Below are positions 5,435 to 43,385 of a stretch of DNA of 63,692 bases, one piece after another. The notes under the pieces are model-generated. The model saw nothing but the letters and a program-made list of their open reading frames with translations. It made no database searches and was not told the origin of the DNA. Position numbers and translations under genes: made by a program. Location of the stretch: the NCBI GenBank assembly GCA_026421185.1, contig JAPKCH010000007.1, positions 1-63,692 of the forward strand. Reading direction: 5' to 3'. The DNA is from Dehalococcoidia bacterium (GTDB lineage Bacteria > Chloroflexota > Dehalococcoidia > Lucifugimonadales > Lucifugimonadaceae). Numbering within the stretch: the first letter of the stretch is position 1; the number at the start of each line of letters is the position of its first letter.

Positions 5435-5551
5435 AAGATGACATTCATCGTTTTCTTTGTCAGTGTCGTAATCTGACTGAAGCGCCAAAACTTGGGGTAT
5501 AACGATTGCTTTAGATCAAAGCTTAAGCCTACTACTACGGTTATTAATCGG

Positions 5552-5767
5552 AATCCGAAAAAAAAATTGCGCATACACGTCATATGGAGTTAGTCTGATT
5601 GGGAAATGATTTTTCGTAACATACATCTGACCGACTGCCTCTGTTGCTGTACCACCTCTGAGGAGATGGCACCCTAGGATCGCGCACAAGCACGCACCGT
5701 AACGCCAACCCTCGCTAATCGAATGCGGGGTTTTTTTTTGGCAATTACTAATTCATAAAAATACATC
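5552..5767 (+). ncRNA. Structured leader-like RNA, copy 1 (upstream of metY)
   Basis: The 474-bp gap before metY holds a 216-nt block nearly repeated at 19745-19961 on the other strand. Shared features in order: AATCCG start; TTGCGCATACAC; a hairpin with 11-nt arms (5575-5585 / 5604-5614) and an 18-nt loop; a 43-nt core at 5629-5671 (37/43 identical in the two copies) containing GTACCACCTCTGA and GAGATGGCA; a TAGG that can pair with the bases just before the core; GCAC repeats; then a terminator hairpin and a T-run. Downstream the conserved ATTACTAATTCA...ATACATC tail continues. I recognise no Rfam family. Position before metY suggests a methionine/SAM-linked riboswitch, but a free small RNA is equally possible. 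Confidence 0.65.
5709..5739 (+). terminator. Intrinsic terminator at the end of RNA copy 1
   Basis: CCCTCGC pairs with GCGGGG around the loop TAATCGAAT and is followed by nine T residues (5731-5739). It ends the conserved RNA 170 bp before metY, which would allow conditional termination. Confidence 0.8.
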
Positions 5768-5896
5768 TAATGAACCATGCTAAAGTTTCAGCTAAATTCG
5801 ACCAAATGTTTTTTTCACGTAATGCTTGCTGGTCCGGTTGAGATTTTGTGTTTGGAAAGAATGAGTTCTTGTTAGAATAAAAAACGCCTAAATTAA

Positions 5897-7228
<1,332 letters not shown>

Positions 7229-7300: not shown

Positions 7301-8191
7301 ATGACTTTAATTCTTCCAACCAACTATCACGCTCTTCCACAGATCGAACAGAATCGCGTGAAGTGGGTTCCGGTTCCACAGGCTAAGAAGCAAGATATTC
7401 GTCCTCTTAGGATCGGCATAATGAACATAATGCCGATCGGTGAACAGTACGAATTCAATCTGCTGTTGCCTTTAGGATTGTCGGTTTTGCAGATCGAACC
7501 AGTTTGGATTCGATTGGAATCCCATCAGTACAAAACGTGGGAGCCGGGTCATATCGACGATCACTACGTTAGTTACGCAGAGGCGATAAAAGACTCGATG
7601 CTCGACGGGTTAATCATTACTGGTGCTCCTGTTGAGCATCTCAAGTTCGAAGAAGTTGCGTATTGGAACGAGTTCACTGAGATAGCGAAGCACGCCCGAG
7701 CACATACTCCGAATACGCTGGGTATTTGCTGGGGAGCGTTTGCACTTGCTTACTTGGAAGGCATTAGCAAAGTAGATTTTGAACAGAAATTGTTTGGGGT
7801 TTATGAGCTGAATAACCTCGATACTGAGCACTTTATTATGGGTGCGATGGACGACGCATTTCTTTCACCTCAAAGTCGGATGGCAGGAATGTCTGACACC
7901 GAACTTTTGCTAGCGCGAGATCGAGGTGATATCAATCTTTTGGCGCATGGTAAGGAATCGGGTTACACGATTTTCGAGACCAAAGATCAAAAGGTACTGA
8001 TGCATCAGGGACACCCGGAATATAGCTCGGGGAGACTTGCGTACGAAGTGCTTAGAGATGCTGGTGATGATTCAGTGTCACTAGTTCAGAATTTTGATCC
8101 ATCGAATCCGGTGAACCGATGGCGGATGCACCGGAATACGTTCTTCCATCAGTGGCTGCGGTATTGTTACACGCAGATTAGTTTGCGATAG
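7301..8191 (+). CDS. metAA: Homoserine O-acetyltransferase, MetA type
   Basis: 296 aa, the normal MetA length. Class I glutamine amidotransferase-like fold: IMNIMP near 40, TGAPVEHLKFEEVAYW (108-122), catalytic Cys143 in GICWGA, and HQGHPEYSSGR near 232 (His and Glu of the triad). MetA enzymes differ at position 111: Gly there gives succinyl-CoA use, Glu gives acetyl-CoA use. Here the matching residue is Glu112 (PVE), so acetyl transfer to homoserine is predicted. This agrees with MetY just upstream, which uses O-acetylhomoserine. The product feeds methionine synthesis. Confidence 0.93.
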   Translation: MTLILPTNYHALPQIEQNRVKWVPVPQAKKQDIRPLRIGIMNIMPIGEQYEFNLLLPLGLSVLQIEPVWIRLESHQYKTWEPGHIDDHYVSYAEAIKDSMLDGLIITGAPVEHLKFEEVAYWNEFTEIAKHARAHTPNTLGICWGAFALAYLEGISKVDFEQKLFGVYELNNLDTEHFIMGAMDDAFLSPQSRMAGMSDTELLLARDRGDINLLAHGKESGYTIFETKDQKVLMHQGHPEYSSGRLAYEVLRDAGDDSVSLVQNFDPSNPVNRWRMHRNTFFHQWLRYCYTQISLR

Positions 8192-19744: not shown

Positions 19745-19961
19745 GATGTATTTTTGTGAATTAGTAATCGTCAAATAATCCCCCCTGCTTTCAATTAGCC
19801 AGGGGGGCGTTCCAGTGCATGCTCGTGCCCTGACCTACAATGCCATCTCTTCAGAGGTGGTACTGCAACAAAGACTGTCGGTTAGGTGTACGGGAAGACA
19901 CACCATTTAGAGCTTAACGTAACCCCAAATGGTGTGTATGCGCAATTATCTTTTGCGGATT
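19745..19961 (-). ncRNA. Structured leader-like RNA, copy 2 (upstream of the DUF4395 gene)
   Basis: A 217-nt block homologous to 5552-5767. The first hairpin has perfect 11-bp arms (19927-19937 with 19898-19908, ACACACCATTT and AAATGGTGTGT) and an 18-nt loop, the same geometry as copy 1; one pair is T-A in copy 1 and C-G here. The 43-nt core lies at 19841-19883. ACCTA and TAGGT flanking the core can pair. The final hairpin stem is CCCCCCTG/CAGGGGGG, different in sequence from copy 1 but around the same loop (TAATTGAA). The rest of the gap (19962-20140) shows nothing I can name. Confidence 0.65.
19780..19807 (-). terminator. Terminator-like hairpin closing RNA copy 2
   Basis: CCCCCCTG pairs with CAGGGGGG, 8 G-C rich pairs. 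The tract that follows (ATTATTTG) is a weaker U-run than in copy 1, so termination may be partial. It lies about 40 nt before the DUF4395 start. Confidence 0.55.
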
Positions 19962-41334: not shown

Positions 41335-41591
41335 TAATGAAACGCTGTGAACGGGAATAGTACCGGACGCAGTACGCAAGAGAGAGCCGGTGTTGGTGTG
41401 AATCCGGTGCGTACTAATTCGAGAACTCGCCTTTGAGCGGATGATCTAAACTCTGTAATTACAGACTAGGATCAAACGGGTTTGGCCACGTTACGGTTCC
41501 TTGAGTGGTCAGGTATTCGAACGCTTGGCAATCGAAGGTGGTACCGCGGGATGTAAGTCTCGTCCTTTGTGAAGGGACGAGATTTTTTTTT
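41335..41591 (+). ncRNA. T-box riboswitch, leucine type (specifier CTC)
   Basis: Fills the 529-bp gap before ilvB. Stem I base CGCT (41343) pairs with AGCG (41436). Inside are GAACGGGAATAGTA, AGAGAGCCGG and GGTGTGAATCCGG, the usual stem I elements. The specifier loop reads GAACTCGCC, so the codon is CTC, Leu (41426-41428). The T-box itself, AGGTGGTACCGCGG, is at 41536-41549 and can bind the tRNA acceptor end. Uncharged tRNA-Leu would prevent the terminator and allow transcription of the operon. 41174-41300 shows nothing else. Confidence 0.95.
41559..41591 (+). terminator. T-box-controlled terminator before ilvB
   Basis: CTCGTCC (41559-41565) pairs with GGACGAG (41575-41581), followed after one A by nine T residues. 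It competes with the antiterminator formed by the T-box sequence. Confidence 0.92.
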
Positions 41592-41702: not shown

Positions 41703-43385
41703 ATGTCAAAGTACCTCAGTGGTAGTCAAATAGTCTGCGAAGCGCTCCTCAATGAGGGCGTCAACGTGGTCTTTGGCATTCCCGGTGGCGCTATTCTTCC
41801 GCTCTACGGCGTACTTTCGCAGTACCCCGATCTGCGCCACATTCTTTCTCGCCATGAGCAGGGCGCTGCTCACTCGGCAGATGGATACGCACGTTCAACC
41901 GGCAAGGTCGGTGTGGCGTTCGCAACATCGGGCCCCGGTGCAACGAACCTTGTAACCGGATTAGCAACAGCCATGATGGATTCAGTTCCAATGGTTGCTA
42001 TCACCGGTCAAGTTGGCCGCTCTGCAATCGGAACCGACGCTTTCCAAGAGACTGACATCACCGGTGCAACACTGCCAGTGACTAAGCACAACTACCTCGT
42101 AATGCGAGCCGAAGATCTCGGTGCAACGATTCACGAGGCGTTCCATATCGCACGTACTGGTCGCCCCGGTCCAGTATTGATAGACATTCCAAAAGATGTC
42201 TTCACCGAGATGGGCGACTATGATTCTAGTGCGCATATCGACCTACCCGGATACAATCCGCCCGGCAAGGCTGAAGAGTCGCAAGTAGAAGCTGCGGCAG
42301 CATTGATAAATGAATCCGAACGCCCTGTAATTCTCGCTGGCCACGGTGTTGTTCTCTCACGATCATGGGATGAGCTGAAGCAACTGGCTGAGAAGGCACA
42401 GATCCCTGTAGTTACGACGTTGCTAGGAATTTCATCGTTCCCAGAAGACCACGTGCTCAGTACTGGCTTCCCCGGGATGCACGGCATGGCATACGCATCG
42501 CTTGCGGTTGATCAGGCCGACCTGATTATCAACTTTGGCAGTCGCTTCGACGATCGTATTGTTGGTGACGCCAAGCGATTCTCAACTGGGTCTAAGAAGA
42601 TCCACGTCGATATCGATCCAGCGGAAATCAATAAGAGCATCCAAGTTGAAGCTCCTGTTATAGGCAATATCAAAGACGTGTTCGCTCAGTTGCTTCCAAA
42701 AGTGAAGCCAAACACCCACGTTGATTGGTTGCAGCACATCGAGCATCTCAAAGCTGAACACCCTTCACTGCGAATTCCTGAGTCCGACCGATTGATGGGG
42801 CAGCACGTTGTGAAAGCTTTGTCTGATGTCACTAAGGGTGATGCAATCATCACTACTGGCGTTGGTCAGCACCAAATGTGGGCTGCACAGCATTACCAGT
42901 TCACGAACGCCAATTCATGGCTTTCTTCGGGTGGTGCTGGGACGATGGGATACGAAGTTCCATCGGCTATCGGTGCGCAGGTTGGTAACCCAGACAAGTT
43001 AGTTTGGTCGATCTGTGGAGACGGTGGTTTTCAGATGACTCTCATGGAGTTGGCAACAGCTGTTGAGAACAACTTGCCAGTGAAGTACGCAATTTTGAAT
43101 AACAACCACTTGGGAATGATTACCCAGTGGCAAGGATTATTCTACGACGGTGACTATCAGGCTGAAACGTATACGGCTAACCCTGATTTCGTGAAGCTTG
43201 CGGATGCCTACGGGATGAAGGGTATTCGTGTAACGAGCCAGGATGAACTTGAATCGGCTATTGCTGAAGCAAACGCCCATGATGGTCCAGTAATCGTCGA
43301 TTTCGTTATCGAAAAGGTGGACGACCTCTACCCAATGATTCCTGCTGGCCAAAGCGTTAAAGAACTGATCGAGGACCCGAACTAA
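41703..43385 (+). CDS. ilvB: Acetolactate synthase large subunit
   Basis: 560 aa from ATG 41703, with AGGAAA upstream. ThDP/FAD enzyme joining two pyruvates (or pyruvate and 2-oxobutyrate). Motifs: FGIPGGAILPLY, SRHEQGAAHSADGYAR with the catalytic Glu near 51, TSGPGATNLVTGLA, FGSRFDDRIVG near 275 and the ThDP site GDGGFQMTLMELATAVENN near 440. First gene of the T-box operon; the ilvN start overlaps its stop by one base. Confidence 0.97.
   Translation: MSKYLSGSQIVCEALLNEGVNVVFGIPGGAILPLYGVLSQYPDLRHILSRHEQGAAHSADGYARSTGKVGVAFATSGPGATNLVTGLATAMMDSVPMVAITGQVGRSAIGTDAFQETDITGATLPVTKHNYLVMRAEDLGATIHEAFHIARTGRPGPVLIDIPKDVFTEMGDYDSSAHIDLPGYNPPGKAEESQVEAAAALINESERPVILAGHGVVLSRSWDELKQLAEKAQIPVVTTLLGISSFPEDHVLSTGFPGMHGMAYASLAVDQADLIINFGSRFDDRIVGDAKRFSTGSKKIHVDIDPAEINKSIQVEAPVIGNIKDVFAQLLPKVKPNTHVDWLQHIEHLKAEHPSLRIPESDRLMGQHVVKALSDVTKGDAIITTGVGQHQMWAAQHYQFTNANSWLSSGGAGTMGYEVPSAIGAQVGNPDKLVWSICGDGGFQMTLMELATAVENNLPVKYAILNNNHLGMITQWQGLFYDGDYQAETYTANPDFVKLADAYGMKGIRVTSQDELESAIAEANAHDGPVIVDFVIEKVDDLYPMIPAGQSVKELIEDPN

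Follow-up and report, generated by a model that had tools for sequence, protein, structure and literature searches.

A putative cysteine-responsive leader-peptide attenuator upstream of metY and DUF4395 genes in SAR202 bacteria

The window analysed here, a contiguous stretch of 63,692 nucleotides from a SAR202 genome, carries two copies of an intergenic element. The first (5552-5767, + strand) lies upstream of metY (5909..7228, +; TIGR01326 above cut-off), the putatively regulated gene, which encodes an O-acetylhomoserine/O-acetylserine sulfhydrylase and is followed by a gene for a MetA-like homoserine acyltransferase (7301-8191). The second (19745-19961, - strand) precedes a gene for a DUF4395 membrane protein (PF14340; 19185..19739, -), the usual target of the attenuator proposed below. 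As an earlier sequence-only reading had held, homology between the copies extends over almost their full length (75% identity, E 3.9e-34), and a G+C hairpin followed by T closes both. A third copy in the same genome is truncated where contig C71 ends, and more are present in other species of the genus. That reading took the pair for a structured, ligand-binding RNA, a new riboswitch class for a sulfur metabolite. Such a class would fit two similar copies in front of sulfur-related genes, and the Rfam search that the reading had proposed indeed gave no match for either copy, even at permissive thresholds. None of the covariance models for SAM, SAH, cobalamin, T-box or other Rfam families matched either leader copy. 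Permissive-threshold Rfam matches to the copies were considered and set aside as chance only.

The stems on which the riboswitch proposal depended did not hold up so well. The 11-pair palindrome described as a first hairpin of both copies occurs in copy 2 only, while seven other copies form 4-8 of the 11 pairs; at this site, which lies across the promoter spacer and start codon described below, 64% of cells were paired vs 57.5% in shuffles. The pairing of ACCTA with TAGGT, said to be preserved by G-U substitution, comes to 5/5 and 4/5 pairs in the window copies and to 1-3 of 5 in the other six. Because neither pairing is kept in further copies, the compensatory change read from two sequences disappears when more are compared, and the conserved covarying stems expected of an aptamer were not found. 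Folding of copy 2 was better than that of its own shuffles (z -3.45), as a riboswitch would predict, but copy 1 folded no better than its shuffles (z 0.06). Copy 2 alone has the palindrome in perfect form (ACACACCATTT...AAATGGTGTGT; 19900-19940, -), across its promoter spacer and the ATG of its leader, and there it might serve as an operator.

The 43-nt core of the element lies within a 23-codon open reading frame with a run of Cys codons and with -35/-10-like hexamers upstream, all of which had been overlooked. In copy 1 this ORF, MIFRNIHLTDCLCCCTTSEEMAP* (5606..5677, +), precedes metY, is probably leaderless, and reads ATG ATT TTT CGT AAC ATA CAT CTG ACC GAC TGC CTC TGT TGC TGT ACC ACC TCT GAG GAG ATG GCA CCC TAG, with Cys codons at 5636-5638 and 5642-5650. 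In copy 2 the ORF before DUF4395, MVCLPVHLTDSLCCSTTSEEMAL* (19835..19906, -), has Cys codons at 19900-19898 and 19870-19865 and hence just two that are adjacent. An in-frame Cys run is found in the ORF of all copies of the element, and length differences between species are whole numbers of codons, the ORFs of the genus having 20 to 26. Protein-coding conservation, which the sequence-only reading had itself named as speaking against a structured RNA, is thus what the core ORF displays. What stands of that reading is an undescribed, conserved cis-regulatory leader outside Rfam and before sulfur genes; its identity as a structured RNA gives way to a core that encodes a Cys-rich leader peptide. 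Short translated leaders can mimic structured RNAs if only two copies are compared. Substitutions at codon positions 1, 2 and 3 numbered 92, 115 and 118, so that the peptide lacks a third-position bias; this would be expected for a leader peptide and is uninformative as independent proof of translation. Other Cys-Leu-Cys-Cys ORFs with an ATG and a -10 in place were not found beyond the cassettes described below, in either the window's own genome or the complete L. marina genome. The L033 leader (genome G010) retains its Cys run, while its start ATG is replaced (GAAGAGATT) and no T run was found 3' of the leader; perhaps it is a decaying copy.

Upstream of the ORF, both copies contain a promoter-like pair. 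In copy 1 (5567..5596, +) the -35 TTGCGC (5567-5572) is separated by an 18-nt spacer from the -10 TAGTCT (5591-5596), and in copy 2 (19916..19945, -) TTGCGC (19945-19940) is paired with TACGTT (19921-19916). TTGC, 18 nt and TAnnnT are kept in nearly all leaders of the genus with a fixed distance from -10 to ATG; the fuller pattern is TTGC(G/T)(C/T), 18 nt, TAnnnT, with the final T of the -10 lying 9 nt before the ATG, and 8-10 nt before it in most other leaders. No -10 was recognised at the expected place in genus g6 and a few single leaders, and a strict consensus promoter scan, which demands 9 of 12 consensus matches, did not score the leader promoter. No Shine-Dalgarno sequence was found upstream of the leader ATG. 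Since the -10 lies 9 nt before the ATG and a Shine-Dalgarno is missing, the leader ORF is probably leaderless or nearly so; from usual promoter geometry, transcription would start at the ATG or 2-4 nt before it.

Of 76 genomes from the SAR202 family to which the window belongs, 52 have DUF4395 (PF14340); the family includes Candidatus Lucifugimonas marina JH1073 (CP046147), a cultured SAR202 strain of the same genus as the window (PMC10444878). We surveyed the DNA upstream of 49 DUF4395 genes from this family for ORFs that start with ATG, span 11-45 codons and hold three or more Cys within six codons, and scored as a -10 any TAnnnT at -16..-9. Such an ORF was present in 30 of the 49 regions, 23 of which also had the TAnnnT. 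Dinucleotide shuffles gave means of 0.38 (ORF) and 0.02 (ORF plus TAnnnT), with maxima of 3 and 1 in 200, and the antisense strand gave 2 and 0. The rule is strict: it misses copy 2, and it was not applied to the leaders before the first tandem copies in G014a and G012 or to G029, all three of which do hold Cys-run ORFs. Among the 19 regions without an ORF by this rule are several where DUF4395 is the second of two tandem copies or follows another gene, or where the rule missed a leader. In some small genomes (G026, G041 and G044) DUF4395 directly follows a 1-Cys-peroxiredoxin-like gene, without a Cys leader.

Cys-run leaders occur in at least six genera, with widely different peptides (MSNIYMRKCCCCCCCRNERFL, MSINLMKMFCCCPNNNFGVA, MNIQLFDCACLCTVAPPGVDV and MTTRTQITDACLCCCTCTRTTTT), and both TGT and TGC serve as Cys codons; it is therefore the Cys codons, and not one nucleotide sequence, that are conserved. 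Nucleotide-level alignment of leaders between genera was impossible. Outside the genus all that persists is a Cys run in the same place and a terminator, on wholly different RNA sequence, which, together with a conserved core that is an ORF, makes the riboswitch a very improbable explanation; nothing points to a metabolite-binding aptamer. The same divergence bears on another reading, in which the Cys-rich product has a function of its own, either as a metal- or redox-active micropeptide or by sensing redox or metal state while still nascent, instead of Cys-tRNA supply. In its favour, the probably leaderless mini-gene comes with a promoter and a terminator, DUF4395 contains four invariant cysteines, and a nascent exported protein that lets a ribosome sense copper is known (PMC9973294). 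However, conservation of the peptide between genera does not extend beyond the Cys run, the ORF is confined to this position, and its 3' end is predicted to double as an antiterminator, as described next. We consider a peptide with such a function of its own unlikely.

An intrinsic-terminator-like hairpin with a U-tract lies 3' of the ORF in all 34 leaders that were modelled, mostly 21-36 nt past the stop codon. Five of these terminators were assigned by hand, the automatic search having failed in two leaders and chosen a wider hairpin in three; a consensus terminator scan, which allows loops of at most 8, missed the leader terminators. Four candidate arms could be assigned in copy 1 (+ strand). 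Arm 1, CCACCTC (5652..5658), would form a protector pairing with arm 2, GAGGAGATGGC (5660..5670), which is the end of the ORF and the 5' half of the predicted antiterminator. Arm 3, GCCAACCCTCGC (5704..5715), would provide both the antiterminator 3' half and the terminator 5' arm, and arm 4, GCGGGG with a T9 tract (5725..5739), the terminator 3' arm and U-tract. The terminator hairpin of copy 2, CCCCCCTGGC...GCAGGGGGG (19780..19807, -), is followed by an imperfect T tract.

These pairings are conserved to differing degrees. The hairpin of arms 1 and 2 overlaps the codons immediately 3' of the Cys run and has 6/6 pairs in seven of eight aligned copies. Between arms 2 and 3 the genus pairs GAGG with CCUC and UGGC with GCCA; 95% of cells were paired here, vs 41-54% when the arms were slid against each other. 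In G017 a two-sided change puts CGGC:GCCG in place of UGGC:GCCA, the sole double change in the genus. Within the genus, shuffling of letters in these two arms gave 71/500, which is not significant, and copy 2 forms 5/8 of the pairs. Wholly different arms pair equivalently in genus g7 (AGGUUUCU with AGAGAAACC) and in g10 (G108; CGGGGGUUGACG with CGUUCGCCCCCG). The conserved pairings, arm1:arm2, arm2:arm3 and arm3:arm4, exclude one another as in an attenuator, and two of the arms lie within coding sequence.

We modelled ribosome stalling by folding the RNA outside the ribosome with the transcript cut before the terminator 3' arm. The mean probability that arm 3 was paired upstream was 0.66 with the ribosome at the Cys codons, 0.22 with the ribosome at the stop codon, and 0.42 for composition-shuffled sequence. 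Stalling gave the higher value in 34/34 leaders (p 1e-10), and also exceeded shuffled sequence (Wilcoxon p 4e-9). With the complete terminator at equilibrium, P(terminator) was 0.94 at the stop vs 0.79 on stalling and was about unchanged in half of the leaders. The model of attenuation therefore rests on co-transcriptional folding; a weak contrast at equilibrium would be as expected of a kinetic switch.

The features of a ribosome-mediated attenuator are accordingly found together: an ORF with a run of Cys codons, an intrinsic terminator (with an imperfect U-tract in copy 2) and a predicted stall-dependent antiterminator in 34 of 34 leaders. We consider it very probable, from sequence and folding models, that the element is a ribosome-mediated, cysteine-responsive transcription attenuator of trp-type anatomy. 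A housekeeping-type promoter would give a transcript starting at the leader ATG or about 2-4 nt before it, whose 19-26-codon leader ORF would be translated without a Shine-Dalgarno. With ample Cys-tRNA, the ribosome would reach the stop codon and mask arm 2, leaving arms 3 and 4 to form the intrinsic terminator, and transcription would stop short of the structural gene. With scarce Cys-tRNA, the ribosome would stall at the Cys codons and mask arm 1; arm 2, made of the last codons of the ORF, could then pair with arm 3, which would block the terminator and let RNA polymerase enter the gene. The net effect would be to turn sulfur genes on when the cell is short of cysteine. All evidence for the attenuator is computational: the ORF, the enrichment of Cys runs, the promoter spacing, the terminator and the alternative pairings were computed, and from these we infer that the leader is translated and leaderless, that cysteine is the signal, and in which direction regulation runs. 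A putative new RNA class is thereby replaced by a concrete, testable gene switch, and one that is carried by the cultured strain JH1073. SAR202 is among the most abundant groups of deep-ocean bacteria.

Leader peptides with Cys runs are already known. In Mycobacterium, leader peptides were predicted before cys operons, with terminators missing (PMC1262725); the first polycysteine candidates there were leaderless translated ORFs (PMC4633059), and those of M. smegmatis are cysteine-responsive according to Canestrari et al. 2020 (doi 10.1111/mmi.14498), as related in PMC9094748, PMC9031893 and PMC13236596. As far as these accounts describe them, and set beside the SAR202 leaders by description instead of peptide sequence, they too are short, apparently leaderless ORFs with a Cys run near the end, before sulfur or cysteine genes. 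They belong, however, to another phylum, and the SAR202 leaders differ in having DUF4395 as a target and in having an intrinsic terminator and antiterminator, reported missing in Mycobacterium (PMC1262725). These closest precedents, called translational attenuators (PMC9031893, PMC13236596), raise the possibility that the SAR202 Cys leader attenuates downstream translation or acts through Rho-dependent termination instead of intrinsic termination. We think there is only a small chance of this, given that a hairpin and U-tract lie at a consistent distance 3' of the ORF in all modelled leaders and that the sequestered arm 3 belongs to that very terminator. A further precedent is uORFC-8-2 upstream of cysS in Rhodobacterales, a Cys-codon uORF with a terminator for which a ribosome-mediated mechanism was proposed (PMC8632094). 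Its tandem-Cys uORF followed by a terminator resembles the SAR202 arrangement, but it is from Alphaproteobacteria and concerns cysS only, and the SAR202 targets differ. Trp-type attenuators such as ilvB1 of Mycobacterium tuberculosis (PMC13236596) share the pairings of arms 1:2, 2:3 and 3:4, the regulatory codons and the intrinsic terminator, whereas the SAR202 leader would sense Cys codons and probably begins at or just before its start codon. No leader-peptide attenuator from Chloroflexota is described in the literature that we searched. As far as that search goes, the phylum and the link to DUF4395 are new, as is the association of a probably leaderless start with a switch between intrinsic terminator and antiterminator.

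Beyond the family, we examined the DNA upstream of about 80 DUF4395 genes, from Actinomycetota, from other Chloroflexota and from a few further phyla, and found no comparable leader. More than 50 of the DUF4395 loci were from Actinomycetota, and among these we did not encounter common descent with the mycobacterial polycysteine leaders. Searches before metY or yeeE of relatives likewise found no Cys leader. The metY copy in the window sits in a roughly 300-bp cassette of promoter and attenuator (5471..5770, +) within ancestral metY upstream DNA: the flanks match the L. marina metY upstream region, which is without the cassette, up to about 5454 and again from about 5769, while the middle matches only C71, at about 90% identity as far as that contig reaches, and the yeeE leader of G011. 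In G011 (L227/L005) a duplicate of about 115 nt of the yeeE 5' end precedes the yeeE copy of the cassette, presumably left behind by the recombination event that brought the cassette in. By sequence, we take it that the same cassette moved before metY in the window genome and before yeeE-tusA in G011. The metY insert flanks and the G011 duplicate therefore show that promoter and attenuator can be copied together, as one unit, in front of further genes. Because the element ends 170 nt before metY, a second promoter between attenuator and gene is possible.

The product of the G011 gene is a sulfur transporter of YeeE/YedE type, which resembles the YedE and TsuA models but scores below their cut-offs, and the gene is followed by one for a small protein that we name TusA-like from its sequence only. 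No yeeE was found in the window's own assembly, probably owing to a gap beyond the end of C71. Both metY and yeeE/yedE-tusA fit a role in providing cysteine and methionine with reduced sulfur, and by inference DUF4395 would share it. DUF4395 is a membrane-type protein, small and helical, in which four cysteines are invariant; its model is confident (pLDDT 85.5), its predicted fold has no significant match in the PDB, and the literature searched mentions it only twice, in passing, so that the attenuator link is a first functional lead. Tentatively, and with the balance tipping slightly against it, we suggest that DUF4395 is an unrecognised membrane protein of sulfur or cysteine acquisition or of thiol handling, tied to cysteine through a leaderless attenuator that was copied as a cassette to metY and yeeE-tusA. 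In relatives without a Cys leader (L221-L225), another conserved unit lies about 60-100 nt before yeeE/yedE, with a -10-like TACACT/TACCAT directly followed by a GC hairpin and U-tract (GAGAAAATCCCCGGCTGATCGGGGTTATTTTTT), and with CTCGCACGTTTCGCACACG; it is possibly a second attenuator, without an ORF.

T-box leaders (RF00230) also read the aminoacylation state of a tRNA through a choice between terminator and antiterminator, but the SAR202 leader has no T-box match and would act through a translated ORF. One such leader (RF00230, 108 bits) does occupy 41338-41570 of the window; the gene behind it, which starts at 41704, is acetolactate synthase-like.
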